A stretch of DNA of 64,000 nucleotides from Bifidobacterium polysaccharolyticum (lineage in GTDB: Bacteria > Actinomycetota > Actinomycetes > Actinomycetales > Bifidobacteriaceae). Of the stretch, positions 8,442 to 28,353 are shown one piece after another. The notes below the pieces were generated by a model. It was not told the origin of the DNA, made no database searches, and worked only from the letters and a program-made list of their open reading frames with translations. The stretch lies in the NCBI RefSeq assembly GCF_016101585.1, contig NZ_JACFQG010000002.1, positions 496,001-560,000 on the forward strand, read 5' to 3'. Numbering within the stretch: the stretch's first letter is position 1; every line of letters begins with the position of its first letter. Made by a program: the position numbers and the translations under genes.

Positions 8442-8987
8442 TCAGGAAGACCTGTCCGCCGAAGCTTCCAGCCGAGCCAGATCCAAGGCCTTGTTGAAGG
8501 CATCCGAGGTCCAGCTGGCCCCAGCCACCTTGTCCACCTTGAGGTCCTTGAGTGGGCGCCCCTGGACTACTCCAGGCACAGCCCGGGCGAAGCGTTCCAT
8601 GTGGCCGCGCGAGATGGGCGAATCCGAATGCCCCTGGACTTGGACCCGGGTCACCTGGCCTCCCGACAGGTCCAGATCCACATCAATGCTGTCAGCCCCG
8701 TCATGCCCGTACTTGCCCGTCAGGGCGTAGGTGCCATCGTGATAGTTGCCCGTGTCAGCCGGGGCGGTCGGCAGTCCATCACGGGAGACGGCGGTGGGAT
8801 TACCTTCGCCCGCAGAGCCGGCTCCTGACTCTGGCGCAGAGCTGGACTCTGCGCCCGATCCGGCGAACTCATCGTCCATGGGCTTGGCCTGCTGACTTCC
8901 ACAGCCGCCCAGGAGGGAGCCGACCGCCACAAGGGTCGCCAGGGTTGCCGAGGCCGTGGCCAGTCCCCGAGACTTGCTTTTGGCCAT
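8442..8987 (-). CDS. FMN-binding-domain lipoprotein at the end of the iron operon
   Basis: A 181-residue secreted lipoprotein (lipobox LLGGC; acylated Cys near residue 28) with a Ser/Ala/Gly/Glu-rich linker and a C-terminal FMN-binding (NqrC/RnfG-like) domain. The blocks 'YHDGTYALTGKYGHDG', 'GGQVTRVQVQGHSDSPIS' and 'VDKVAGASWTSDAFNKALD' fit the family; D-K-V-A-G-A-S matches the ApbE flavinylation pattern D-x-x-(S/T)-G-A-(S/T), except that Ala replaces the first Ser/Thr. The ATG at 8987 has GGAGG eight bases upstream and lies one base after the ATPase stop. In related P19 loci of Gram-negatives this slot is usually filled by thioredoxin-like proteins. It probably passes electrons to iron outside the membrane; that role is inferred. 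Confidence 0.85.
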   Translation of the reverse strand: MAKSKSRGLATASATLATLVAVGSLLGGCGSQQAKPMDDEFAGSGAESSSAPESGAGSAGEGNPTAVSRDGLPTAPADTGNYHDGTYALTGKYGHDGADSIDVDLDLSGGQVTRVQVQGHSDSPISRGHMERFARAVPGVVQGRPLKDLKVDKVAGASWTSDAFNKALDLARLEASADRSS

Positions 8988-8988
8988 T

Positions 8989-9858
8989 TCAACGCCCTCC
9001 TTCTGATTCAGCGGCCGATCCCGGCAAGGAGCCGCCGGTCTTGGCCATCTTAGTGGGGTCATGGAAGCCCACCGGAATATCCTGGTCCCCGGAATCGACA
9101 GGAGTTCCACTGAAGGCCGGACGGCCTCCGGCAGCAAGGTAGGCCCGCTTGGCCTCCTCATCATTCCACTGCTCGCCGGCCAGCACACCGTGGTTGAGCA
9201 TGATCTCCCGCTGGGCGCAGGAGGCCACCAGGGCATCGTGGGTGACCACAATCAAAGAGGTCCCCTGGTCATGCAATTGCCTGAAGAGGTCCAGCACAAT
9301 CCGCTCATTGGCCTCGTCCAGGTTGCCAGTGGGCTCGTCAGCCAGGATCAGCTTGGGCTCGTTGATCAACGCCCGGGCCACGCAGACCCGCTGCTGCTCG
9401 CCACCCGAAAGCTGACTGGGCAGGTGGCGGGCCCGATCCGCCAGACCCACCCGGTCCAGAGCCTTCATGGCCTGGTCCTCGTCCACCACCGAGTGGTAGT
9501 ACTGGGCCACCATGACGTTCTCCAGGGCGGTCAGATGCGGGACCAGGTAGAACTTCTGGAAGACCAGGCCTATCACGTTCTTGCGCACATCGGCCAGCTG
9601 GGACTGGCTCAGGTCCTCCAATGGCCGCCCCTGCAGACGGACCGAGCCCCGGCTGGGGGTGTCCATGCAGCCCAGAATGTTCATCAGCGTGGTCTTGCCT
9701 GAGCCGGATGACCCCACCACGGCCAGCCACTGACCTTGCGGGACGCTCAGATTCAAATCGTCCAGGGCATGCAGATCGCCGTAGATCTTGGATACATGGT
9801 CCAAATCCAGCAGCATGCCGCCGCCCGACGGGGACTCGTTCGCCTTTGCCTGCGTCAT
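8989..9858 (-). CDS. ABC transporter ATP-binding protein of the iron operon
   Basis: A 289-residue cytoplasmic ATPase of the MacB/LolD type. Walker A 'GSSGSGKTTL', the Q-loop region 'VFQKFYLVPHLTALENV', the signature 'LSGGEQQRV' and Walker B 'LILADEPTGNLD' are all intact. A non-conserved tail of roughly 60 residues follows the ATPase core. Two ATG codons, 9864 and 9858, are possible; I prefer 9858 because GGAGG stands seven bases before it, while the first ATG abuts the site. The gene overlaps or touches the upstream permease, and together with the two FtsX-like permeases it should form one transporter or mechanotransmission complex. Confidence 0.9.
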   Translation of the reverse strand: MTQAKANESPSGGGMLLDLDHVSKIYGDLHALDDLNLSVPQGQWLAVVGSSGSGKTTLMNILGCMDTPSRGSVRLQGRPLEDLSQSQLADVRKNVIGLVFQKFYLVPHLTALENVMVAQYYHSVVDEDQAMKALDRVGLADRARHLPSQLSGGEQQRVCVARALINEPKLILADEPTGNLDEANERIVLDLFRQLHDQGTSLIVVTHDALVASCAQREIMLNHGVLAGEQWNDEEAKRAYLAAGGRPAFSGTPVDSGDQDIPVGFHDPTKMAKTGGSLPGSAAESEGGR

Positions 9859-9860
9859 TG

Positions 9861-11054
9861 TCATTCCTCCCTCAAAACCAGGGCCGGGTCGATACGCGAA
9901 GCCCGGAGGACCGGCCGGATGGATGCGATCATGGATATGGCCACGCTCAGCAGGACCGTGCCCAGGGCCAGCCACCAGTTGAAGCCCAGCGGCCGTTGGA
10001 AGACGGACAGGCAGAGCAGCCGGGCGAAGCCATAGCCCAGGGCCGTGCCGATCAGGCCTCCTGCCAATCCGTAGCAGGCCGATTCCGCCAGAAACTCCAT
10101 AGCTATCCCCCGCGAGGAAGCGCCCAGGGCCTTGCGCAGGCCGATCTCGCTGCGCCGCTGGGAGACGATGGAGGCCATGGTGGTCCCCACGCCCACAAAG
10201 GTCAGGACCAGCACCACCACAGAAACCAGCCAGAAGAGCGACTGGAGCATGGCGATGGTATGGCTGTCGCCCGCTGTGATCCTGGTGACCGGCCGGGCCT
10301 TGACCCCCATGGAGGTCATGTCGTTGATGCCTGCGGCAATGGTCTTTAGCCCCGAGGTCATGGTGTTGACCGAGTATTCAATGACATCGGTACCCCGCTT
10401 GGCCCCGGTCAGGAGCTCCAGGTCGGCCAGGTCGGCGTAGATGATCCGATCCTCGGGACCACCGGTATCGACGATGCCGCCCACACGAAAGTCACGGCCC
10501 TGGCCTCCGGCCTTGCCTGTGTTGGTGACCTGTCCGGCCGGATAGCCGATGGTCATCTGTTTGCCAGTGGTCAGCCCAAGCGAATCAGCCAGGTCCCGCC
10601 CCACCATGACCGAACCGGGCCGGGGCCAGGAACCCTCCACGCTCCAGTGGCGGTTGAGCCGACGCACTTGGTCAGGGTGGATGCCGGCCATCACGCGGGC
10701 CCCGGCATTGACCTGCACCGTCTCATATCGATAGGTGGCGTACCTTGCCGGAGCCTTGGCGGTCACCATATGGGTGGTGTGGTCCACCATGCCCTGTTCG
10801 ATGCCGGATTCGGACCGGTTGCCCCCCTGAATGGGCGAGACGATCAAATTGGCCCCATAGGAACGCATCTCCTGGTTGATCTGTCTAGGGGCCTCGATGC
10901 AGACCGCCGCCAGGCAGAAGAGTGTGGCCGCCCCCACCAGGGAGGCCACCACCGCCATCAGGGCCCTGCCTCGACGACGGAAGACGGCCCCGAAGAGCAT
11001 GGTCAGGAACATGCGGGTATTGGTCATATGGCTCTTATGGCGATCAGCGGCCAT
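9861..11054 (-). CDS. FtsX/MacB-like ABC permease (second of two)
   Basis: A 397-residue membrane protein with the MacB/FtsX layout: one N-terminal membrane helix ('ALMAVVASLVGAATLFCLAA'), a periplasm-type extracellular domain, and three C-terminal helices around 'GTTMASIVSQRRSEIGLRKA'. That last motif is the diagnostic coupling segment of the family. The ATG at 11054 overlaps the upstream permease by 11 bases and has GGAGG six bases before it. Comparable pairs of permeases are found in P19-type iron uptake loci. Confidence 0.88.
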   Translation of the reverse strand: MAADRHKSHMTNTRMFLTMLFGAVFRRRGRALMAVVASLVGAATLFCLAAVCIEAPRQINQEMRSYGANLIVSPIQGGNRSESGIEQGMVDHTTHMVTAKAPARYATYRYETVQVNAGARVMAGIHPDQVRRLNRHWSVEGSWPRPGSVMVGRDLADSLGLTTGKQMTIGYPAGQVTNTGKAGGQGRDFRVGGIVDTGGPEDRIIYADLADLELLTGAKRGTDVIEYSVNTMTSGLKTIAAGINDMTSMGVKARPVTRITAGDSHTIAMLQSLFWLVSVVVLVLTFVGVGTTMASIVSQRRSEIGLRKALGASSRGIAMEFLAESACYGLAGGLIGTALGYGFARLLCLSVFQRPLGFNWWLALGTVLLSVAISMIASIRPVLRASRIDPALVLREE

Positions 11055-12354
11055 GAAGCACCTCCGCCGGCCGAAGCCGCAGAATGGATCTGATGGACGA
11101 GATGGATGCCAGCAGCACGGTCAGGGCCAGCAGCACGAAAACCAGCACGAAAACCATGGGCCGCATGGTGATGCCTGAGCCGAAGACCACCCTGCCCACG
11201 ATCTGAGCCACTCCGGAGCCCAGCAGAGCACCGACCAGAGCCCCGGCCAGGGCGATCAGGGCCGTCTCGGCCAGCACCAGTCTGGACACGGCTCCATCAG
11301 TGGCACCCAGAGCTTTAAGCAGGGCGAACTCCGAGGACCGCTCGGATATGGAGGATGCCATCAGATTGGCCACGGCGATGGCTGCCGCCAGCAGGCTGAG
11401 CACGGTCATCAGAATCATGACCGCCTGGGTCTTCTGCAGAACGTCGCCCTGCAGGGCCGCCACCTGCCTGACCTGCTTGGCCATGGATCCGGGGATGGCC
11501 TCCTCGATTTGGTAGGCGATGGATGAGGGGTAGGCCGTGCAGTACCAGGTCTCCCATTCGTCCTGGGAGAGGGCAGCAGGGTTTCGCGCAGCCTTGCGCG
11601 CCAGATCGTTCTCGGGCGTGGTCAGGGCCTTGACCTCCACCTGGTCGATCTGATCGGTCAGGCCGGACATCTCCTGTAGCGGCCGGGTAGGCAGGTAGAG
11701 GGAGGAGGCATCGGCATCACCGGAGTCGAAGATGCCTACAATGGTGACGGTCCGCCGCTGATCGCCCAGACCGACCTTGACCTGGTCACCAACCTGACTG
11801 CCGCCCAGTCGTGCCGCCAGCTCTTTGCCCATCATGGCCTCGGTCCCGCCGCCGGACCCAGCCTCGTCCTTGGGCCAGCGTCCTTGAACCTTCCACCAGG
11901 GTCGAAGACCTTTCAGACCCGCAGTGCTGCTCTCGCCGCTGTCCACCTTGACGGTCCGGCCGAACCAGGTGCCCACCAGAGGGGCGCTGACCTGGTCCAC
12001 AGTGCCGCGAAGGTCCAGGCGGGGGGCGAAGTCGGTGATGTTGTAGGCCCAGAAGATGGTCTTGATCTTGGGCACCTGGGACTCCTTGAGGAAGGCGGTT
12101 GGTGTTGACTCGTCGCTTGAGGGGCCGCCCTCCTGGTCGCCGTAGAGGTCGGAGACCACGGCATCCGCCTTGGCCTGGACCGTGATATTGGATCCATAGG
12201 TGGACAGTTCCGCGTTGAGCTTGTCGCCCACATCGAAGACCACCCCCAGCATGGCCGTAGCTACGCAGGCAGACAGGCAGACCGTGACGGCGATGAGCAT
12301 TCTTCGCCCAAACTGGCGGCTGAATGACCGCAGCATCATTCGCATGAAGAACAT
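11044..12354 (-). CDS. FtsX/MacB-like ABC permease (first of two)
   Basis: A 436-residue membrane protein, paralogous in layout to the next gene: N-terminal helix 'MLIAVTVCLSACVATAMLG', a large extracytoplasmic domain, then three C-terminal helices with 'ASSISERSSEFALLKALG', the FtsX-type coupling motif. The extracytoplasmic domain is longer than in its partner and contains a Gly/Ser-rich insertion near 'KDEAGSGGGTEAMMGKELAA'. AAGGAGC precedes the ATG at 12354, 21 nt after the DUF2318 gene. Confidence 0.88.
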   Translation of the reverse strand: MFFMRMMLRSFSRQFGRRMLIAVTVCLSACVATAMLGVVFDVGDKLNAELSTYGSNITVQAKADAVVSDLYGDQEGGPSSDESTPTAFLKESQVPKIKTIFWAYNITDFAPRLDLRGTVDQVSAPLVGTWFGRTVKVDSGESSTAGLKGLRPWWKVQGRWPKDEAGSGGGTEAMMGKELAARLGGSQVGDQVKVGLGDQRRTVTIVGIFDSGDADASSLYLPTRPLQEMSGLTDQIDQVEVKALTTPENDLARKAARNPAALSQDEWETWYCTAYPSSIAYQIEEAIPGSMAKQVRQVAALQGDVLQKTQAVMILMTVLSLLAAAIAVANLMASSISERSSEFALLKALGATDGAVSRLVLAETALIALAGALVGALLGSGVAQIVGRVVFGSGITMRPMVFVLVFVLLALTVLLASISSIRSILRLRPAEVLHGR

Positions 12355-12375
12355 ACCAACCGCTCCTTCCCTTTT

Positions 12376-13650
12376 TCAGCTCTTGAAGTGTGAGGACAGG
12401 GCATCCAGGTCGGCGGTGCTGATCAGTATGGCGCCCCGGCCGGTTTTGTATGGCAGGGGTACGGGATTGCAGCCGCCCTTGAACCCGATGGTGGCCAGGT
12501 TGATGGCCACGTCGCACTTCTTGCAGATGATCTTGCCGTCTTTTTCGTAATAGCCCGCATCCCCGCAGTTCTCGCAGGCATCCAGCCCGACCCCATAGGC
12601 TGCACCATTCTTGCGGATGATGATGAAGCGCATCTCAGTGCCGTCCTTGGCCCGGTAGCTGAATCGATGCAGGTGGCCATCCTCCACCTGGGAGAAACGA
12701 ATGGTAGCCGTATCAGCGGTCAGGGAATACCGCTCAGGAGGCGAGAGCACGGGCACCTGGTGGGCCTTGGCGGTGCCCACCGTCAGTGCCAGGGTGACGC
12801 CGATCATGGCCACCAGGCTCCAGACCGCCGATGCCAGGGCCCTTCGGCGGAAGGCCCGGTGGCTACGGTCGTCGGCTGTGGAAGCTCCAGTCACCGGCAT
12901 GCGCCAGCCCGCAACCAGGCAGGCCAGAACCGGAATGATGAAGACCAGCACCTGGGCAAGAACCAGGATCAGGTCGGCGTTGTATCCCAGGGCCATGACC
13001 CGGAAGGCCCATCCATGCAGAAGAATCAGGCCGGTGGTCTGCATCAGGGCTACCAGGGCTACGGCGTGCCGGACCAGCAGCAGGATCACCATGAGCAGAG
13101 CGGCCAGGCGGAAGGCTATCCGAGGGCAGGAGGTATGCATGGTCCTCAGAATGGCGGCCACCGTCACAGCGGCAGCCAGACCGAGCAGGAAGCCCAGGGC
13201 CCGCAGGAGCATGGCCGAGGTCAGCACAGGCTCCCCCGGCTCCACAAAGGCCGTAAGCTGCAGGATGACATCGGGCAGGGCACGGAAAGTGGTCAGCGCT
13301 ATGGCCAGGGCCGCCAAACCGTTAGCCAGATCCATGGCCCAGGGGCGGCGATGCCAGTCTGAGACCAGCCGGTCGGCGACCAGCACCACCACGATGGCCG
13401 CCAGATCGGTCAGAACGCAGGCTACCAGGGTCGGGTAGTTGACCATGGTCCGGCGGTTAATAATCACGGTGGCGCGCAGGAGGGCAAAGACCAACGCCCC
13501 CAGCACGCCGACCCCCAGGCCAATCAGTCGCCAGGAGGAGGAGCGGGGCCGATCGCGGCCCTCGCCAACCCCCAGAAGGACGCTGAAAACCATGACCAGG
13601 AGGGCCGGGGCCAGCGTCCCTGGCAAGACCGTGACAAATTGCTCAAGCAT
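12376..13650 (-). CDS. DUF2318 (Fe-S-containing) multi-pass membrane protein
   Basis: A 424-residue protein with about eight to nine membrane segments followed by an extracytoplasmic C-terminal domain carrying two CxxC pairs ('CENCGDAGYY' and 'CKKC') and 'FKGGCNPVPLPY', the DUF2318 signature. The family sits beside P19 and FTR1 in bacterial ferrous/ferric iron uptake loci and is thought to move electrons or bind a metal centre. I chose the ATG at 13650, 13 nt after the P19 stop; an in-frame TTG at 13707 would force a 44-base overlap. No Shine-Dalgarno is obvious, so translation may depend on the upstream gene. Confidence 0.87.
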   Translation of the reverse strand: MLEQFVTVLPGTLAPALLVMVFSVLLGVGEGRDRPRSSSWRLIGLGVGVLGALVFALLRATVIINRRTMVNYPTLVACVLTDLAAIVVVLVADRLVSDWHRRPWAMDLANGLAALAIALTTFRALPDVILQLTAFVEPGEPVLTSAMLLRALGFLLGLAAAVTVAAILRTMHTSCPRIAFRLAALLMVILLLVRHAVALVALMQTTGLILLHGWAFRVMALGYNADLILVLAQVLVFIIPVLACLVAGWRMPVTGASTADDRSHRAFRRRALASAVWSLVAMIGVTLALTVGTAKAHQVPVLSPPERYSLTADTATIRFSQVEDGHLHRFSYRAKDGTEMRFIIIRKNGAAYGVGLDACENCGDAGYYEKDGKIICKKCDVAINLATIGFKGGCNPVPLPYKTGRGAILISTADLDALSSHFKS

Positions 13651-13663
13651 GGCGCATAGCAGC

Positions 13664-14287
13664 TTACCACTGGTGGGGCGTGTAGTCCCAGTCCCAGCTG
13701 ACCACAATAGGCTCGGTCCAGAAGTGTCCCTTCACGCCGGTCTCCGGGTCGACGTGCAGCATCCATCCCTTCTTCTCCGGAGAGTCGATGGAATAGGTCA
13801 GCTTGTAGGATCCGGCCTTCTCCATCTTGATGTTGGCTCCGTAATGCGGGCCGTCCGAGGCGTTCATCTGCATGAAGGTGCCGGACTGCTTGTCGTTGGG
13901 GTCATCCTTGTTCTGGATGGTGTAGTTGACGGTCAGATCCGGAACGAACTCACCTTTGGCATAGCCCAGGTTGTTGTTGGGCAGGGCATGGATATCAGCC
14001 TCCAGGTGCAGGCTGGCATCGGCTGCCTTCAGACCCATGGATGCGGGCTCCATGTCGATGGGCTGGAAGAAGACCGTGCCAATGTTCAGGGGACCCTTCT
14101 GCTGATCGTCGGGCGGAATGGGGATCTCCTCGAACCCGGCCCCCTTGCCCGCCGAGGACTGGGAGGCACCGGAGGCCTCAGGCGCTTGGGCCTCACGGGT
14201 GCCTGACCCGCTGGAGCCGCACCCGGCCAGGGCCAAGGTGCCTGAGAGCACCAGCGCGACCAGGGCGGTCAGTTGTCTCTTCTTCAT
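13664..14287 (-). CDS. P19/Tp34-type periplasmic-like iron-binding lipoprotein
   Basis: A 207-residue lipoprotein (lipobox LALAGC, Cys near residue 23) with a Ser/Gly/Ala linker and a beta-sandwich domain of the P19/Tp34 iron transport family. The block 'MEPASMGLKAADASLHLEAD', His in 'DIHALPNN', and His in 'SDGPHYGANI' are the positions that supply Met/His metal ligands in P19. 'WMLHVDPETGVKGHFWTEP' near the C-terminus is also typical. It delivers iron to the FTR1 permease. Its ATG overlaps the FTR1 stop (ATGA). Confidence 0.9.
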   Translation of the reverse strand: MKKRQLTALVALVLSGTLALAGCGSSGSGTREAQAPEASGASQSSAGKGAGFEEIPIPPDDQQKGPLNIGTVFFQPIDMEPASMGLKAADASLHLEADIHALPNNNLGYAKGEFVPDLTVNYTIQNKDDPNDKQSGTFMQMNASDGPHYGANIKMEKAGSYKLTYSIDSPEKKGWMLHVDPETGVKGHFWTEPIVVSWDWDYTPHQW

Positions 14288-16098
14288 GATTGTCCTTCGC
14301 TCTTTGGTGTTTGCATGGATGCCGTGACCTCAGAGGGCACAGCCCCTTCGGCGGCCTGCTCGGCTTCCGTCTGATGGACGGTTGCCGACGGCGACCCGCC
14401 GGAGTCCTGATTCGACCGCAACCGCTCCTGCTTGTGCAGGCGGCGGGTCGACACAATTGCCAGCACGACCACGACCAGGGCGGCCAGGATCTGGGCGCCG
14501 ATGGTCTGTGTGTAGGGATACAGCCCGATCCAGTCGCTGGTGGGCACACCGGGCAGATAGGTGGCCGGCACCAGATCGCCCTCAATCAGGGCATGGACAC
14601 CGCCGCCGGCGAAGATGACCACCATGACCGCCATGAGCAGGCTGGTGATGATGAAGAAGGGCCGGATGGGGATCTTGACCGAGGTGAAGCGAATGAGCAC
14701 GAAGACGATGACCAGGACCACGGCGGCAGCTGCAAAACCGGTCCAAATCTCCCGTCTGCCACCGGGAGCCATGGCGAAGATGGCCTGGTAGAACATGACC
14801 GTCTCCGCCCCCTCCCTGAAGACCGCCAGGAAGGAGAGCAGGGCCAGGGAGATCACGCTGCCCTTCGAGATGGCCGCCACCGTCCGGCTCCGGATGTAGT
14901 GGTTCCAGGATTCCACAGAGGACTTGGACAGCATCCAGTTACTGGTGTAGAGCAACATGAGCATGGCCACCAGGGCCACCACGCCCTCCAGGATCTCCTG
15001 CTGGGGACCGTTCCCGTTGAAGAGCAGGGTGAAGAGCAGGGCCACCAGCCCGCTGGCTACGAGGCCCGCTGCAATGCCCCAGTAGATGTGCCGAACCTTG
15101 TCTTTATGGCCGGACTTGACCAGGTAGGCAATGATGGCGGCCACCACCAGGATGGCCTCCAACCCCTCCCGCAACAGGACCACAAAAGCCTGTCCGAAGG
15201 CGGAGGTCAGGAAGGACGTCCACCCGTTGACCTGGTCTGCGGCGCCTCCGTCCAGAATGGCTGCGTCCTCGACCAGCATGCTCTTCAGGTCGTTCACCAG
15301 GGTCTTGGCCGGCTTGCCCGCCACCATGGCCATCCGGGTCTCCTTGAACTGGTACTCGACCTGGGAGACCCTGTTGCCGCTGATGGCATTCATGACGTTC
15401 TTCTCGAAGCCCAGCTTTTCGTAATACTGGTAATAAGCCTTGTTGACCAGGTCGGACCCCGCCTGGCCCTGTCCCTTGGATGCCTCGGCGAGCGCCTGAT
15501 CCAGGATGGGCGTCATCTCGTGGGCCACCTGAGTCCAGGTCCGATCGCCCTTGCCGTTATTCCGATGCTTCTTGGCTGCGTCCAGCCTTCGACGGTCCGC
15601 CTTGATCTGCTCCTGCTGAGCCCTGGCATAGGCACGGGGATTGGCCAGCCCTTGGGTGGCATCCAGCTGGGTGGCCGCAGCAGCCAGATCGGCCTTGAGC
15701 TTTTCACTGCCCTGGGTCAGGGCCTGCCCGTTATCCGGAGCGTAGGCCTGGTTCTGCAGGGCCTGGAACTGCCCGTCCAGACCGTTGCGCTTATCCTGCC
15801 CTAAGGTCGACTCCACGACCGAAACGAACCCAGAGCCCACATAACCCACGTTGTAGGCTCCCATGAATTGCGAGGCGGCCCCGGCGCGATCTCCATGGCC
15901 ATAGTCCTCACACCCTCGGTCCAGCTGATGGGATACGGAGTCAGCCACCTGGGTCCAGCTGTCATAATCCGTGGCCGCGCTCGCCGCCATGGCCGACTGC
16001 GGGGTTTGCAGAACCAGGAGTATCAGGGCCAACAGCAGGTATGAGAGCAGGGAACCAGCGGTCCTGGCCACTCGCGTCCTGCCGACCTGTGCAACCAT
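14284..16098 (-). CDS. FTR1-family iron permease with long extracytoplasmic N-terminal domain
   Basis: A 604-residue protein. Residues about 1-39 form a signal or membrane anchor, about 40-295 a helical extracytoplasmic domain, and about 300-570 the seven-helix FTR1 permease. The iron-binding REGxE motifs are both present: REGLE at 310-314 and REGAE at 428-432. The N-terminal extension resembles that of bacterial FetM/EfeU-type permeases and is thought to receive iron from P19. The ATG at 16098 has AAGGAGA ten bases upstream, and it is the first gene of the seven-gene minus-strand operon. No clear DtxR/IdeR box was found in the 159 bp upstream. Confidence 0.9.
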   Translation of the reverse strand: MVAQVGRTRVARTAGSLLSYLLLALILLVLQTPQSAMAASAATDYDSWTQVADSVSHQLDRGCEDYGHGDRAGAASQFMGAYNVGYVGSGFVSVVESTLGQDKRNGLDGQFQALQNQAYAPDNGQALTQGSEKLKADLAAAATQLDATQGLANPRAYARAQQEQIKADRRRLDAAKKHRNNGKGDRTWTQVAHEMTPILDQALAEASKGQGQAGSDLVNKAYYQYYEKLGFEKNVMNAISGNRVSQVEYQFKETRMAMVAGKPAKTLVNDLKSMLVEDAAILDGGAADQVNGWTSFLTSAFGQAFVVLLREGLEAILVVAAIIAYLVKSGHKDKVRHIYWGIAAGLVASGLVALLFTLLFNGNGPQQEILEGVVALVAMLMLLYTSNWMLSKSSVESWNHYIRSRTVAAISKGSVISLALLSFLAVFREGAETVMFYQAIFAMAPGGRREIWTGFAAAAVVLVIVFVLIRFTSVKIPIRPFFIITSLLMAVMVVIFAGGGVHALIEGDLVPATYLPGVPTSDWIGLYPYTQTIGAQILAALVVVVLAIVSTRRLHKQERLRSNQDSGGSPSATVHQTEAEQAAEGAVPSEVTASMQTPKSEGQS

Positions 16099-16257: not shown

Positions 16258-17748
16258 TCAGTCGACCGACAACGGCTCACCCTTATGCTTCCACAGGCAG
16301 ATGCCGCCGAATACCAGCAGCCAGACCAATCCCAGTATGGCTGGATACCGGGTGTCGGGAGCCAGGAAGAGCGAGAGGTAGATCAGGACGAAGAAGGCGA
16401 TGGCAATGGCTCCAGTCACCCGGTAGGCCGGCATGATGAACCCATCAGGCATGAAGTCCGGGCTGGTCCGGTAGCGGCGGTGAGCAAGCAGGGTCAGAAT
16501 GTAGATGAAGATGATGACCGCGCTGGAGCAGGAGGTGAACAGGACGAAGGTGTTCTCGAAGCCGGGCAGCATATGCAACACCGGAGATAAGAGGATCAGC
16601 ACTCCGGACAGGATGATGGCCCGGGCAGGCACCTTGCCGCGGCGTGAAATCGTATGAAGGCTGCGCATCACAGGAGAGCGGCCGGCGGCGGCCAACTGGA
16701 AGAGGTTGCGGCCGGCGGAATAGAGCAGGGAATTCAGCGAGGAGCTGGCTGCCGTGATGACCACGAAGAAGACCAATGCGGCCGCCCAGTCCACCCCCGC
16801 GTAACGAAAGACCATGACGAATGGCGAGGTGAAGCTGCCGTCGGCGTTGGGGCGGAAGGAGCGCCAGGGCACGATCAGCATGATGGCGACCAGGGCACCC
16901 ACGTAGAAAATCAGTACGCGCAGGATGATCTGATTGATGGCCTTGGGCAGGACCTTGCGGGGATTCTGCGTCTCGGATACGGTCACCCCTACGAATTCGA
17001 TCATCTCGTAGGCGAAGAAGACCATCTGGAAGCTCATGAAGAAGGCCATCCACCCGTTGGGCGCCAGGCTCAGACCGCTGGTGATGTTGTCCAGGCCGGC
17101 ATGCCCAGCCGGGCTGATCCGGTCCTGTCCCGGCATGTGGACGGCCGGATAGTGGAAGCCTGTGATGACCATGACCACAGCCGTGACGATCATGGCCAGA
17201 ATCAGGGTGATCTTGATCATGGAGAACCAGAACTCGGTCTCCCCGAAAACCCTCACGGCAATCAGATTGATGCACACCATGGCCGTCAGGAAGCAGAACT
17301 CAATCAGACCCCGCCAGGCGCTCAGATCAATGCCGAAGGTGCCGAAGAAGGTGACGAAGTAGGTGCCCACGGCAGTCAGCTCGGACATGCCGATCAGGAT
17401 GAGCACGATCCAGTAGGACCAGCCGGCGAAGGACCCCCACCCCTGGCCCAGGTAGCGGCTGATGAAGGCGATGAAGGTGTGCTGGACGGGGCTGCGATAC
17501 ATGAGCTCGCCAATGGCCCGCATGAGCAGGTACATGATCAGCCCCACGCCGATGTAGACCAGAATGATGGAGGGACCGGTCAGGGCTATGGACTTGCCCG
17601 ACCCCAGGAAGAGCCCGGTGCCGATGGTGCCGCCGATGGCGATGAACTGCACATGACGGTTGCTCAGACCGCGTTCCATACCGTCGCCTGCCGAGGCGCT
17701 GTCACCTTGATTCTGTTGCGCCAAAGGGCCATTGCCCGTACGGTTCAT
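16258..17748 (-). CDS. APC-family amino acid permease (CycA-like)
   Basis: A 496-residue integral membrane transporter with about 12 helices. The AAT-subfamily start 'LSNRHVQFIAIGGTIGTGLF' followed by 'LGSGKSIALTGPSIILVYIG' binds the amino acid backbone in this family. It resembles D-serine/alanine/glycine permeases, but substrate cannot be read from sequence. AAGGAGGTG precedes the ATG at 17748; a TTG or other start further upstream is less likely. It is transcribed alone, divergent from the next permease. Confidence 0.88.
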   Translation of the reverse strand: MNRTGNGPLAQQNQGDSASAGDGMERGLSNRHVQFIAIGGTIGTGLFLGSGKSIALTGPSIILVYIGVGLIMYLLMRAIGELMYRSPVQHTFIAFISRYLGQGWGSFAGWSYWIVLILIGMSELTAVGTYFVTFFGTFGIDLSAWRGLIEFCFLTAMVCINLIAVRVFGETEFWFSMIKITLILAMIVTAVVMVITGFHYPAVHMPGQDRISPAGHAGLDNITSGLSLAPNGWMAFFMSFQMVFFAYEMIEFVGVTVSETQNPRKVLPKAINQIILRVLIFYVGALVAIMLIVPWRSFRPNADGSFTSPFVMVFRYAGVDWAAALVFFVVITAASSSLNSLLYSAGRNLFQLAAAGRSPVMRSLHTISRRGKVPARAIILSGVLILLSPVLHMLPGFENTFVLFTSCSSAVIIFIYILTLLAHRRYRTSPDFMPDGFIMPAYRVTGAIAIAFFVLIYLSLFLAPDTRYPAILGLVWLLVFGGICLWKHKGEPLSVD

Positions 17749-18053
17749 GCGACTGCACCTCCTTGTCTTCACAACCCATTAATCATCGCCGTCCAAGAAG
17801 GGACATCCTGTCGAGGCCGGTAGGACAGCAATACCACAGAGGTGTCGATAACCGGGAGCAGGCGGCAGGCACCGACGCCCATGGTAGGACCCAGCGGTCA
17901 CGATTTGGTGAATTGAACGTCTCATATGGCGGACGCCTATATTCCACAATGCAAAGGCCTGGTCATCCTGCGCGGGTCGGCTTCGATAGGGTTGGGCCTG
18001 TCAGCCGGCGGTATCCAGTTGACAACCATCACCATCTAAGGAATGACATCCCC
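17749..18053. other. Intergenic region between two divergent permeases
   Basis: About 305 bp without a credible gene. Short inverted repeats are present (for example CTGTC/GACAG near 17811-17828), but no known riboswitch consensus could be matched and no clean promoter was identified. Confidence 0.4.
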
Positions 18054-19517
18054 ATGGATCAACCCAAGGAGTCGCAGGGCAAGGACCTGCGCAAAACCCT
18101 GAAGAACAGGCATATCCAGCTCATCTCGCTGGGCGGCGCCATCGGAACGGGACTCTTCTACGGGTCCGGGGAATCCATCTCATTGGCAGGGCCGGCCATC
18201 ATCATCGCCTATCTGATAGGCGGTCTAGCCATCTTCATGATCGTCAGGGCCATGAGCGAAATGAGCGTGGAAGACCCCAAGTCCGGCGCTTTCAGCTACT
18301 ACGCCACCCGCTACTGGTCCAAACGGGCAGGGTTCGTTTCAGGGTGGAACTACTGGATGAACTACGTGCTTGTATCCATGGTCGAACTCTCCGTAGTGGG
18401 CACCTTCGTCAACTTCTGGTTCCCGGCAATACCCGCCTGGGTATCTGCGGCCTTCTTCCTGGTGGTCATCACGGCAGCCAATCTGATGGGCGTCAGCAAA
18501 TTTGGCGAGTTTGAGTTCTGGTTCGCCATCATCAAGATCGCAGCCATCGTGGCCATGATCATCGGCGGACTGGCCGTCGTGGTCATGGCCCTGCCCACGG
18601 CCAACGGACTGCGGGCCTCCTTTGCCAACTGGTTCACCGTGGGCGGCGGATTCCTGCCCAATGGACTGATGCGTCATGGCGCCAACGGCCAGTGGACCGG
18701 TCTGCTTATGTCGCTGGCTGTGGTCATGTTCAGCTTCGGCGGCACGGAACTCATCGGCATCACCGCCGGAGAAGCCTCGGATCCCCGTCGGACCATCCCC
18801 AAGGCCACCAACGCCATCATTTGGAGGATCCTGGTCTTCTACATCCTGACGCTTGGAGTGATCATGGCCGTGGTTCCCTGGAACGCCATCGGCAAGCCCA
18901 ATGCCCAGGGCATGGTCGTCAGCCCCTTCGTCCAGATTTTCGACTCGGTGGGAGTCCACGCGGCCGCAGGCATCCTCAACTTCGTCTGCCTGACCGCAGT
19001 CATGAGCGTCTACAACTCGGCCCTCTACTCCAACTCCCGCATGCTCTTCTCCCTGGCCCGGCAGGGCAATGCCCCCAAGTACCTGGGACGGCTGTCCAAG
19101 GGCGGCGTGCCCTACGCAGGAGTGCTGACCTCGGCCTGCATCATCGCCCTGGCGGTGGTCGTGGTCTTCCTCTGGCCCCAGTTCGCCTTCAACTACCTGA
19201 TGAGCATCGCCACGATCTCGGCCATCATCAATTGGTCCATGATCATGGTGACCGAGATGCTCTTCCGGCGTGCTGTTGCCCGCGGTGAAGGCCCCGGCGA
19301 CCTGGCGGGCAAGACCGGCGAAAGCGCTCTGAACGCCCTACACTTCAAGCTGCCCTTTGCCCGGGTGACCCCCTGGGCGGTCCTGGCCTTCCTGGCCATG
19401 ATCGTGGTACTCATGTGCTTCTCATCCAGCTACCGGGTGGCCGTCATCGCCGGGCCTATCTGGCTTATCGTCCTGCTGGTGTCCTACCAACTGACCCAGC
19501 GGCGAGCGCGCCAATGA
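18054..19517 (+). CDS. APC-family amino acid permease
   Basis: A 487-residue AAT-subfamily transporter with 12 predicted helices, beginning with 'LKNRHIQLISLGGAIGTGLF' and 'YGSGESISLAGPAIIIAYLI'. 'GEFEFWFAIIKIAAIVAMII' and 'GGTELIGITAGEASDPRRTI' are conserved landmarks of the family. The frame is open back to 17763, but residues before 18054 have no family similarity and the ATG at 18054 is preceded by AAGGA. It is related to proline/aromatic/GABA permeases; substrate unknown. It converges on the dehydrogenase gene with a 15-bp gap. Confidence 0.87.
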   Translation: MDQPKESQGKDLRKTLKNRHIQLISLGGAIGTGLFYGSGESISLAGPAIIIAYLIGGLAIFMIVRAMSEMSVEDPKSGAFSYYATRYWSKRAGFVSGWNYWMNYVLVSMVELSVVGTFVNFWFPAIPAWVSAAFFLVVITAANLMGVSKFGEFEFWFAIIKIAAIVAMIIGGLAVVVMALPTANGLRASFANWFTVGGGFLPNGLMRHGANGQWTGLLMSLAVVMFSFGGTELIGITAGEASDPRRTIPKATNAIIWRILVFYILTLGVIMAVVPWNAIGKPNAQGMVVSPFVQIFDSVGVHAAAGILNFVCLTAVMSVYNSALYSNSRMLFSLARQGNAPKYLGRLSKGGVPYAGVLTSACIIALAVVVVFLWPQFAFNYLMSIATISAIINWSMIMVTEMLFRRAVARGEGPGDLAGKTGESALNALHFKLPFARVTPWAVLAFLAMIVVLMCFSSSYRVAVIAGPIWLIVLLVSYQLTQRRARQ

Positions 19518-22392: not shown

Positions 22393-22597
22393 AAGATTTG
22401 TCAACTAGCATGACACATTATGACCATGGGAGCTGGAAAGCCACACCAATGGCATAGACTCCCTAAGCGTTCGAGGACCGGCCCAAGGACCCGGCTATAT
22501 GAATCTATTCCGACATCCAGCCGGCAATATCAAGAATCACAATTTCAGTACGACCCCGGACTCCCCGGTGCGTCGCCCAGCCAAAAGGAGGAGGATC

Positions 22598-24103
22598 ATG
22601 ACGCAGAACACCAGCAATGCAGCGTCGAACACCAATCAATCCGACCGGGCCGGGCAAGAGCACCATGGCTATGGCAACGTCAAGCGCAACCTCAAGACCC
22701 GCCACATCTCCATGATCGCCCTGGGCGGCTGCATCGGCACCGGCCTGTTCATGACCTCCGGCTCCACCATCTCCACAGCCGGCCCCGGCGGAGGACTTCT
22801 GGCCTACATCGCCATGGGCGTCATGGTCTACTTCCTGATGACCAGTCTGGGCGAGCTGGCCACCCACCTGCCGGTGTCGGGATCCTTCGCCGCCTACAGC
22901 GCCCGCTACGTGGATCCGGCCCTGGGCTTCGCCATGGGCTGGGACTACTGGCTGAACTGGACCATCTCGGGTGCCGTGGACATCTCCACCGCAGCCCTGC
23001 TGATCCAGTACTGGCTGCCACACACCCCGGGATGGATCTGGAGCCTGCTGGTCCTGGTCATCGTCTTCCTTATCAACGCCCTGACGGTCTCCGCATTCGG
23101 GGAAACCGAGTTCTGGCTCTCCCTGATCAAGGTGGCCACTATCATCGTCTTCTTGGTCATCGGCATGGCCATGATCTGCGGAATCATGTTCCAGCCGGCG
23201 GTCGGCCTGAAGAACTTCACCTACAAGGACGCCCCCTTCGTGGGCGGATTCCCGGCCATCATGAGCGTCTTCCTGATCGCCGGCTACTCATTCCAAGGCA
23301 CCGAGGTGGTAGGCGTGACCGCTGGCGAGTCCGAGAACCCCGGCAAGGCGGTCCCCAAGGCCATCAACGACGTCTTCTGGCGGATCCTGCTCTTCTATGT
23401 GCTGTCCATCTTCGTTATCGCTGCCCTGATTCCCTACACCAGCCCCAACCTCCTGGGAGCCTCTGACGGGAACATCGCCATGTCGCCATTCACCCTGGTC
23501 TTCCAGCGGGCCGGCCTGGCCTCGGCGGCCAGCGTCATGAACGCGGTGGTGTTGACATCCATCCTCTCGGCCGTCAACACCGGGGCCTACGCCTCCAGCC
23601 GCATGCTCTACGGACTGGCCAAGGACCACTATGCTCCGGCCATCTTCGCCAGGACCACCAAGAGGGGCATCCCCCTGGCGGCCCTGGTAGCCACGGTCTG
23701 CATGTCCCTGGCCACCTTTGCCTCCAGCATCTTCGGCCAGTCCTTCTATATGTGGCTGGTGACCGCCACTGGGTTGACCGGGTTCATCGCCTGGATCGGC
23801 ATCGCGCTGAGCCACTTCCGCTTCCGGAGGGCCTTCAAGCTCCAGGGACACGACCTGAGTGAACTCAAGTATCACTCCAAGCTCTATCCGTTCGGCCCGA
23901 TCCTGGCCATGGTGCTCTGCGTCATCGTCATCGCCGGACAGGATATCCCCTCCCTGCTCAGCCTGAACTGGTCGCACATGGCCATGACCTACTTCAGCGT
24001 GGTGCTGGTCCTGGTCCTCTACCTGGGCTTCAAGTTCGTCAACCACACCAAGATCGTGCGCCTCAAGGACATGGACGTGTCCGGCGCCGAATCCGCCCGC
24101 TGA
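22598..24103 (+). CDS. LysP-like permease, tandem paralogue without riboswitch
   Basis: A 501-residue permease that is nearly the twin of the upstream protein over all 12 helices ('LKTRHISMIALGGCIGTGLF', 'YKDAPFVGGFPAIMSVFLIA', 'SHFRFRRAFKLQGHDLSELK'). Differences cluster in the N-terminus, in loops, and at 'GYSFQGTEVVGVTAGESENP', where the first copy has GFSFQGTELIG. The ATG at 22598 has AAAGGAGGAGG upstream, and the region before it has no L-box elements. The pair is a tandem duplication that kept the transporter but not the lysine sensor; the second copy may have a different cationic substrate. Confidence 0.88.
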   Translation: MTQNTSNAASNTNQSDRAGQEHHGYGNVKRNLKTRHISMIALGGCIGTGLFMTSGSTISTAGPGGGLLAYIAMGVMVYFLMTSLGELATHLPVSGSFAAYSARYVDPALGFAMGWDYWLNWTISGAVDISTAALLIQYWLPHTPGWIWSLLVLVIVFLINALTVSAFGETEFWLSLIKVATIIVFLVIGMAMICGIMFQPAVGLKNFTYKDAPFVGGFPAIMSVFLIAGYSFQGTEVVGVTAGESENPGKAVPKAINDVFWRILLFYVLSIFVIAALIPYTSPNLLGASDGNIAMSPFTLVFQRAGLASAASVMNAVVLTSILSAVNTGAYASSRMLYGLAKDHYAPAIFARTTKRGIPLAALVATVCMSLATFASSIFGQSFYMWLVTATGLTGFIAWIGIALSHFRFRRAFKLQGHDLSELKYHSKLYPFGPILAMVLCVIVIAGQDIPSLLSLNWSHMAMTYFSVVLVLVLYLGFKFVNHTKIVRLKDMDVSGAESAR

Positions 24104-27384: not shown

Positions 27385-28353
27385 CTATGTGGACGGATGG
27401 ATATTGGGGTCAGTAAAGAACCGACCCGGAAATTCGTCGGAGATCACGGCCTGACGGTCGGCATACATCAGCGCACAGGCGAAGGAAAATCCGGCAGCCA
27501 GCACATCCGGCTGCACCAGGAAGAGGGCAGTGGCCAGACCATCAGCCAGGCCCGTGGGGTGTTCATTGTCCTTTTCCTCAGTCACTACCCAGGAGGCCAG
27601 CACACGGTCAACTGGACGGCCGTCAATGGCGTCCAGGATGTGGTGAAGTGCCGTTAACCCTGCCGCTGCAGCATCCTCGGACCGGTCGGCCCAATGGCGG
27701 CGGCTGGGTGCCGAGGCGCACAAAGAACCACAGGACAGCTCAATCCGGCCCACGCCTGCAGACAAATCACCGGGATCTTCCATAGCGATGGAGATCGGGT
27801 GAGAGGTCCGCATACGCATGTCGCCGCCAGCATCGATCACATACTCTTCGACCCGAGGTTCGAGCAGGTCAGCAATCAGATCAACCAAATAGCCCTTGCC
27901 GACTGCCCCGAAATCAAGGCTGACCGGACCGGCAGTCATAAGGACAGCACCCTGACGTCTGAGGTCATTGCCCCAGGTCGGCCGCCCATGGATCCGTCCC
28001 AGATGACCGACGGCATCGGCCTGCAGCCGGAAAGTGGGCTGCATGCCGTATCCCAGACGGGTCAGATCCTCGCCCACCATGGGGTCCAAGGCCCCGCCGG
28101 TAGCAGAATACAGCCTGTCATACAGGTCAAACAGCCCCTGGCAGTAGTCAGGAAAGACGAACCTACCCCCATGGGTAGCCTGGGCCATTTGCGCAGGTAT
28201 GGCATCCTGCCTGAACCTTGACAGGGCACACTCGTAATCCTCGATCAGATCAGCGATAGTCCCGTGCAGTCGTTCTCCCAGAGGCCTGTCCGTAGAGATG
28301 ATGATTCCTGTCCCGACCGCCCCCGGGAAGGCAGTCAGGCAGGGCAGACCCAT
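27385..28353 (-). CDS. apbE: FAD:protein FMN transferase (ApbE family)
   Basis: A 322-residue ApbE-type flavin transferase that cuts FAD and attaches FMN to Ser or Thr in D-x-x-(S/T)-G-A-(S/T) motifs of exported proteins, using Mg2+. The core 'VSLDFGAVGKGYLVDLIADL', 'EYVIDAGGDMRM' and the metal-site block 'GLADGLATALFL' match the family. No signal peptide or lipobox is apparent, so it probably acts at the cytoplasmic side or is exported otherwise. It lies 9 bp after purA and probably shares its transcript. Its likely target in this window is the FMN-binding lipoprotein at 8442-8987. Confidence 0.9.
   Translation of the reverse strand: MGLPCLTAFPGAVGTGIIISTDRPLGERLHGTIADLIEDYECALSRFRQDAIPAQMAQATHGGRFVFPDYCQGLFDLYDRLYSATGGALDPMVGEDLTRLGYGMQPTFRLQADAVGHLGRIHGRPTWGNDLRRQGAVLMTAGPVSLDFGAVGKGYLVDLIADLLEPRVEEYVIDAGGDMRMRTSHPISIAMEDPGDLSAGVGRIELSCGSLCASAPSRRHWADRSEDAAAAGLTALHHILDAIDGRPVDRVLASWVVTEEKDNEHPTGLADGLATALFLVQPDVLAAGFSFACALMYADRQAVISDEFPGRFFTDPNIHPST

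Follow-up and report, generated by a model that had tools for sequence, protein, structure and literature searches.

Organization of the iron-uptake operon

The 64,000-nucleotide stretch of the Bifidobacterium polysaccharolyticum genome analyzed here (contig NZ_JACFQG010000002.1, positions 496,001 to 560,000; hereafter the window) carries on its minus strand, from 16098 to 8442, seven packed consecutive genes for iron uptake. They form the Gram-positive version of the known P19/FTR1 system (fetMP-fetABCDEF type), and the same operon has already been described in bifidobacteria as bfeUO-sifABCDE. The original prediction had placed here, at these coordinates, an FTR1 permease, P19, a DUF2318 protein, two FtsX-like permeases, an ATPase and a flavin mononucleotide (FMN)-binding lipoprotein; this was confirmed by the coordinates and by Pfam, each of the seven products scoring above its own cut-off in the profile search. 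Most of what follows concerns the FMN-binding lipoprotein SifE and an ApbE-family flavin transferase, also in the window (27385..28353, minus strand; PF02424, 98.1 bits), whose open reading frame (ORF) begins at the conserved core.

The FTR1-family iron permease, a BfeU ortholog (14284..16098; PF03239, 140.5 bits), has a long extracytoplasmic N-terminal part, and its translation contains two motifs, REGLE and REGAE, of the form RExxE, which we take to be the motif expected in FTR1. The P19 iron-binding lipoprotein, a BfeO ortholog (13664..14287; PF10634, 200.4 bits), matches 18 distinct sequences of solved structures at E ≤ 0.001, with 3nrp the best (E = 9.3e-44). Next come the FtrD/DUF2318 membrane protein, a SifA ortholog called FetA in Campylobacter (12376..13650; PF10080, 107.6 bits), and two FtsX/MacB-type ATP-binding cassette (ABC) permeases, both also matching PF12704 (MacB_PCD): permease 1, the SifB ortholog (11044..12354; PF02687, 57.1 bits), and permease 2, the SifC ortholog (9861..11054; PF02687, 76.2 bits). 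The ABC ATPase, a SifD ortholog (8989..9858; PF00005, 120.5 bits), was translated from the ATG at 9858, and its ORF can be extended to 9975 through an upstream start. The SifE ortholog closes the set (8442..8987, ATG at 8987; PF04205, 24.9 bits).

Adjacent genes overlap by 4 nucleotides (nt) (FTR1/P19) and 11 nt (permease 1/permease 2) or are separated by 13 nt (P19–FtrD, with the FtrD ATG at 13650), 21 nt (FtrD–permease 1), 2 nt (permease 2–ATPase) and 1 nt (ATPase–FMN gene). Directly 3′ of the stop codon of the FMN gene, a 10-bp hairpin followed by TTTT (8409-8380, minus strand), read by eye, is a probable terminator; it is absent from the list of the terminator scan, which needs five T in eight. 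The promoter scan found 0 sites against 1.4 expected, and a search of the window for the published iron motif of B. breve, tolerating up to three mismatches, gave 0 matches.

The operon is flanked by an amino-acid permease gene and a cyclopropane-fatty-acid-synthase-like gene, neither of which belongs to the set. Three APC-type amino-acid permease genes lie within 8 kb upstream of it, at 16258-17772 (called by Pfam) and at 17763-19517 and 22499-24103 (called by eye from the translations).

The bfeUO-sifABCDE operon of B. breve, characterized through transposon mutants (Lanigan 2017, PMC5449479), is identical to the present one in its seven genes and their order. Protein identity to a B. breve-like genome of our sample, G057, ranges from 51% (SifE) to 78% (ATPase). 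The identities of G057 fit the published B. breve row within one point in the FtrD, permease 1 and ATPase columns (11 of 11 species), with differences of up to 10 points in the other columns. In B. breve, sifA is reported to have its own promoter after an intergenic gap (PMC5449479), whereas P19 and FtrD here are likely on one transcript because the gap between them is so short. Table 5 of the same paper lists B. asteroides (BAST_1624-1618) with all seven genes, and the paper also points out that B. bombi and B. bohemicum have no sifE. Our source genome is itself placed in the B. asteroides group by sequence, since its FtrD is 96–98% identical to that of B. asteroides, B. mizhiense, B. apousia and B. 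mellis strains.

According to Liu 2018 (PMC6083913), the first six genes occur in the same order in all 33 species examined, and the seventh position holds a thioredoxin in most Proteobacteria and an FMN-binding protein in Actinobacteria, Firmicutes, Spirochaetes and Synergistetes; B. kashiwanohense appears in the figure legend. Méheust 2021 (PMC8238504) counts 260 clusters, most of them from Gram-positives, in which P19 is accompanied by an FMN-binding domain, and draws the parallel to thioredoxin; the present operon is one of that kind. The C. jejuni fetMP-fetABCDEF operon (cj1649-1656) shares the first six genes in order, but its seventh and eighth genes are thioredoxin-like, where the present operon has a single FMN-binding lipoprotein (PMC6083913, PMC10783030); the seventh place here holds FMN_bind by Pfam, so this is not the thioredoxin-ended variant. 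The contrast with Gram-negative thioredoxins drawn in the original prediction is thus correct, and the novelty that it implied for an FMN-ended operon is not supported, because both the gene set and the contrast are in print (PMC6083913, PMC8238504).

Homologs of the first six genes were found in 55 of 55 mapped loci, with FTR1 merely a fragment in L149. Judged by sequence comparison, chance is excluded as the source of the gene set, because the order of these six genes is kept in 13 operons that lack the FMN gene and in L107, which has all seven, and their homologs recur in all mapped loci.

Joint retention and loss of SifE and ApbE

The new result is that the SifE-type FMN protein and the ApbE flavin transferase are kept or lost together, as judged from Pfam profile matches in 151 Bifidobacteriaceae genomes. 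ApbE was also examined in a few Actinomyces. FtrD was found in 106 of the 151 genomes, FMN_bind in 93 and ApbE in 98. Among the 106 FtrD-carrying genomes, 93 have both FMN_bind and ApbE, 13 have neither and none is discordant; this includes G041, whose FMN gene falls under the Pfam threshold, sits right after the ATPase gene and was added from BLAST. The 45 genomes without FtrD comprise 39 with neither, five with ApbE only (G130, G016, G040, G034 and G045) and one with FMN_bind only (G077). In G130 (L109), FTR1 and a partial P19 remain near ApbE, resembling a decaying operon.

By Pfam positions, 91 of the 93 genomes have FMN_bind at most 7 kb from FtrD, and ApbE lies no more than 20 kb from FtrD in 60 of the 93. 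The source genome has one ApbE match, 15 kb from FtrD, and one FMN_bind match; G057 likewise has one of each.

The 80 named FtrD loci, in which L191 and L192 are the two ends of one record, gave the same picture. Five lack the FMN gene (B. aemilianum, B. sp. ESL0784, B. bombi, B. commune and Bombiscardovia coagulans), and ApbE is missing from all five of these genomes; it was found in seven of seven genomes picked from the named ones that have the FMN gene.

A tree of five operon proteins places two loss events, both with the 55 mapped loci and with 69 rows (54 of the 55 mapped loci, without L149, plus 15 of the 80 named loci). Both genes persist in the B. asteroides group, which branches as the sister of one loss clade. 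Bombiscardovia comes from bumblebees. Host information taken from papers gives Xylocopa for B. aemilianum and Bombus for B. bombi and B. commune, i.e., all three named losers whose host was looked up come from bumble or carpenter bees. The original prediction had named absence of the FMN gene from orthologous operons, together with a flavin-free protein, as evidence that would speak against it; the absence was encountered in part, the gene being missing from 13 of the 106 FtrD-carrying genomes, in two clades, and present in 93.

No thioredoxin or other replacement was seen in the 13 FMN-less operons among ORFs of at least 50 amino acids up to 3.5 kb past the ATPase gene, as judged by eye on the first 130 residues and not by profile search. 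A tblastn search (E ≤ 0.1) of 18 loss loci detected no remnant of the FMN gene; five of these loci are named records, of which at least two, ESL0784 and Bombiscardovia, belong to the 13 as well.

A Met/His-rich loop of permease 2 was considered as a general substitute for SifE. Of the 13 rows from loss clade B, 12 have a loop with at least five Met, against none of the five rows from clade A; among 117 FMN-keeping rows (L149 counted, some genomes occurring twice in the row sets) it is found in two, the B. breve-like genome and B. tibiigranuli, which is sister to clade B. We rejected the substitution, as B. bombi lost the gene without the insertion, and the loop is probably older than the loss of SifE, because B. 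tibiigranuli and the B. breve-like genome also have it. In the B. commune loss clade (L097-L106, L181, L216), the long loop carries 5–16 Met in 12 of 13 rows, and some members have a similar loop in permease 1.

SifE as a candidate substrate of ApbE

We consider it probable that the operon encodes iron uptake of the bfeUO-sifABCDE type in which SifE, flavinylated by ApbE before export, acts at the extracellular membrane surface as a redox partner. P19 would bind iron outside the membrane and FTR1 would carry it in, while FtrD and the FtsX-type ABC transporter would support uptake. ApbE would put one covalent FMN on the SifE lipoprotein in the cytoplasm, after which SifE would be exported by Sec.

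SifE has the lipobox LGGC, and its PF04205 score passes the cut-off of 22 bits by a modest amount. Support for the FMN_bind fold comes from a profile search, which matched 8p2a at E = 0.006, and from VIA-align, which gave Z = 9.6 for 8p2a, 7.9 for 8p2b and 7.5 for NqrC (4xhf); unrelated folds reach Z = 7.4, so only 8p2a stands apart. Plain Foldseek returned no match at E ≤ 0.001, with RnfG TM0246 in 12th place (E = 0.14) behind chiefly IscU and SufU chains. SifE thus has its fold in common with the multi-flavinylated proteins SaFMN3 and CbFMN4 and with the FMN-binding domains of NqrC and RnfG, but differs from them in being single-domain, in having Ser as the likely acceptor and in having Ala for Ser/Thr at motif position 4. 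The candidate flavinylation site is DKVAGASWTS, where dkvAGASwTs of the SifE profile aligns with DAVSGATYTS of that group; A155-G156-A157-S158 and T160 (A-G-A-S-x-T) are invariant in 35 of 35 SifE sequences. We infer a covalent flavin on SifE from the link with ApbE, and SifE may work like ApbE-flavinylated FMN_bind proteins despite its departure from the consensus.

Mutant phenotypes, published for the B. breve orthologs only, bear on the same point. The sifE transposon mutant supports the predicted role in iron uptake (PMC5449479), and the mutant table of that paper covers 28 genes, sifA-E and 23 others. In our own reading of its patterns, sifA-E mutants grow normally with ciclopirox and poorly with dipyridyl and phenanthroline, and among the 23 non-sif genes apbE alone behaves in this way; mntH is similar but is rated ++ on phenanthroline. 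We interpret the apbE phenotype as a failure to flavinylate SifE; the titles and abstract openings turned up by our literature search did not state an ApbE–SifE link in bifidobacteria. The authors themselves ascribed the phenotype, by analogy with Salmonella, to iron–sulfur (Fe-S) cluster repair (PMC5449479), which would be unrelated to SifE. Their explanation is favored by the dipyridyl defect, which is weaker in apbE than in sifE; on phenanthroline, apbE grows worse than sifE. We regard this explanation as improbable, since the mutant of the Fe-S gene apbC suffers from each of the three chelators and the apbE mutant, like those of sifA-E, tolerates ciclopirox (PMC5449479), and since current literature treats ApbE as a flavin transferase (PMC12052999).

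The flavin is probably attached to SifE in the cytoplasm before Sec export, because the linked ApbE shows no signal peptide and the source genome has no TatC match in the profile search (TatC exceeds the cut-off in 5 of 151 genomes). The window ApbE, which begins 9 nt past the upstream ORF, shows neither a signal peptide nor a lipobox, as judged by hydropathy. Of 87 ApbE rows, L065 is a canonical ApbE whose alignment starts mid-protein, leaving 86 for the analysis of leaders, with some genomes occurring twice. Leaders are shorter than 12 residues in 41 of the 86; in 44 of the 45 longer ones the best 12-residue hydropathy is ≤1.65, and the exception (2.17) is an over-extended frame of 223 residues. 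A signal-like segment is therefore missing from 85 of 86 ApbE leaders, compared with hydropathies of 1.90–2.60 in 35 of 35 SifE leaders.

Méheust 2021 (PMC8238504) centers on extracytosolic ApbE, whereas the linked ApbE here has no visible signal peptide. A cytosolic ApbE has been described for soluble fumarate reductase (review, PMC12052999), and our literature search on cytosolic or cytoplasmic ApbE turned up nothing beyond that review. On this basis we advance, as a tentative and somewhat less than probable generalization, that Bifidobacteria and Actinomyces flavinylate SifE from inside: a dedicated signal-less ApbE would recognize A-G-A-S before Sec export, with no need for FAD (flavin adenine dinucleotide) export, and both genes would have disappeared jointly on two occasions, in clades whose members of known host live with bumble or carpenter bees, with the remaining iron system kept.

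Besides the milder apbE phenotype and the authors' own explanation of it, several observations weigh against the main explanation, flavinylation of SifE by ApbE before export. The reviewed flavinylation motif is D-x-x-[S/T]-G-A-[S/T] (PMC12052999), to which D-K-V-A-G-A-S of SifE does not conform: position 4 is Ala in all 35 sequences, and the leading Asp is present in just 25 of them. ApbE has other work in some genomes, because 5 of 151 have it without FMN_bind. SifE, as far as gene content tells, is not always needed, because the 13 genomes without it keep the remaining six genes. G009 (76% complete) has its FMN_bind gene on a different contig, and no copy was detected behind the ATPase gene. 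Fisher's test of FMN_bind–ApbE concordance, with kinship ignored, gives p = 6e-17, which overstates the strength because the 106 genomes are related and two loss events lie behind the 13 losses; it should be read as two concordant events. Finally, hydropathy is not equal to SignalP, and the six canonical ApbEs of these genomes also stay at or below 1.40, so that the comparison contains no signal-bearing ApbE as a control.

The weak Pfam score of SifE, the Ala in the motif, its unconserved leading Asp, the five genomes with ApbE alone and the count of just two losses would all suit a SifE that binds FMN or another ligand non-covalently, or that is a structural or metal-binding lipoprotein, with ApbE serving elsewhere and the co-loss coincidental in two lineages. 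We judge this very improbable in view of the concordance in 106 of 106 FtrD-carrying and 12 of 12 named genomes, the genomic linkage of the two genes, the single FMN_bind and single ApbE in both the source genome and the B. breve-like genome, and the mutant pattern common to apbE and sifA-E.

Some relatives (L034-L046, L053, L055, L056, L059, L061) encode a second protein of the FMN_bind family, and its N-terminus is hydrophobic in most cases. A canonical SGAT site is present in 18 of 19 loci of this type examined, and none was recognized in L060. An ApbE gene adjoins the second FMN_bind gene in several loci, and the three adjacent ApbEs that were recognized have no clear signal. In G111 and G122, a sub-threshold Ferric_reduct match adjoins the second FMN_bind/ApbE pair.

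FtrD and the direction of electron transfer

FtrD is predicted to have about eight membrane helices, and its C-terminal domain contains two histidines (H326 and H328) and five cysteines (C359, C362, C376, C379 and C394), all of them invariant in 38 of 38 sequences. The spacing of the cysteines, CxxC-x13-CxxC-x14-C, falls within the DUF2318 pattern (CxxC-x13-CxxC-x14,15-C) and agrees with the published Campylobacter-type spacing (PMC6083913). The AlphaFold2 model has a mean pLDDT (predicted local distance difference test) of 85.1; Foldseek returned no match to it at E ≤ 0.001, and phmmer found no solved relative of FtrD at E ≤ 0.1. A heme-type electron conduit was rejected, as H195 is the only near-invariant His outside the C-terminal domain and no bis-His signature was seen. 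It should be noted that the FtrD of L149 (genome G009) is distant (33% identity) and has a long His/Cys C-terminal tail missing from the other 14 aligned sequences.

The original prediction had proposed that electrons could pass from DUF2318 through the flavoprotein to Fe(III) held by P19. This path is hypothetical: no known transmembrane donor passes the cut-off, and the seventh and eighth proteins of Campylobacter are thought to be oxidases (PMC10783030), so electrons could also run the other way. DsbD_TM, Ferric_reduct, Fer4_5 and NQR2/RnfD each exceeded the cut-off in 0 of 151 genomes, in a search that did not include PepSY, DUF4405 or Eet-type conduits. Sub-threshold matches (E ≤ 0.001) occur in two (G084 and G057), four, one and none of the 151 genomes, respectively, and in 14 control genomes the same profiles match in 10, 4, 6 and 4. 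These four families are thus unlikely as the electron source, as far as profile matches tell. A related FMN protein has a redox potential of −184 mV and reacts with dioxygen (PMC10339131), and by analogy these properties are compatible with either role of SifE.

The predicted pathway is therefore possible but one-sided. The likeliest reaction of SifE would be reduction of Fe(III) near P19/FtrD, and the opposite direction is a serious rival: as an electron acceptor, SifE would be reduced by Fe(II), with P19 or the FtrD cysteines as the intermediary, and FTR1 would then carry Fe(III), in parallel with the ferroxidases that serve yeast Ftr1 and with the cupredoxin FtrB proposed in FtrABCD. We rate this as rather unlikely. 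In C. jejuni, this position is taken by FetE and FetF, a redundant pair for which an oxidase role in vivo has been suggested (PMC10783030); Fe(II) oxidation is also predicted for FtrC (PMC11966278); and the sif mutants of B. breve are hit by the chelators that the authors call ferrous and spared by ciclopirox (PMC5449479). The donor families missing above the cut-off and the dioxygen reaction of the related covalent FMN protein (PMC10339131) point the same way. Set against this, there is no known acceptor for SifE electrons in a fermenting anaerobe. Flavinylated lipoproteins of known function, such as PplA of Listeria, reduce extracellular acceptors. The sub-threshold donor matches, one of them a DsbD in the B. 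breve-like genome, and the restriction of the donor search to four families, leaving aside PepSY, DUF4405 and unknown conduits, also reduce the force of the argument for an acceptor.

Since the operon was already known, the original finding by itself adds little, and the constraints added here matter modestly. The useful yield is the ApbE–SifE pairing and its loss on two occasions, in clades with bee symbionts among their members, together with an ApbE that shows no signal peptide. The pairing gives the FMN protein a candidate maturation enzyme and offers another reading of the published apbE phenotype, and the bee symbionts are natural knock-outs of this component of P19-type uptake. If the flavin is attached before export, this would change how the flavinylation of surface proteins is assumed to proceed in these bacteria.

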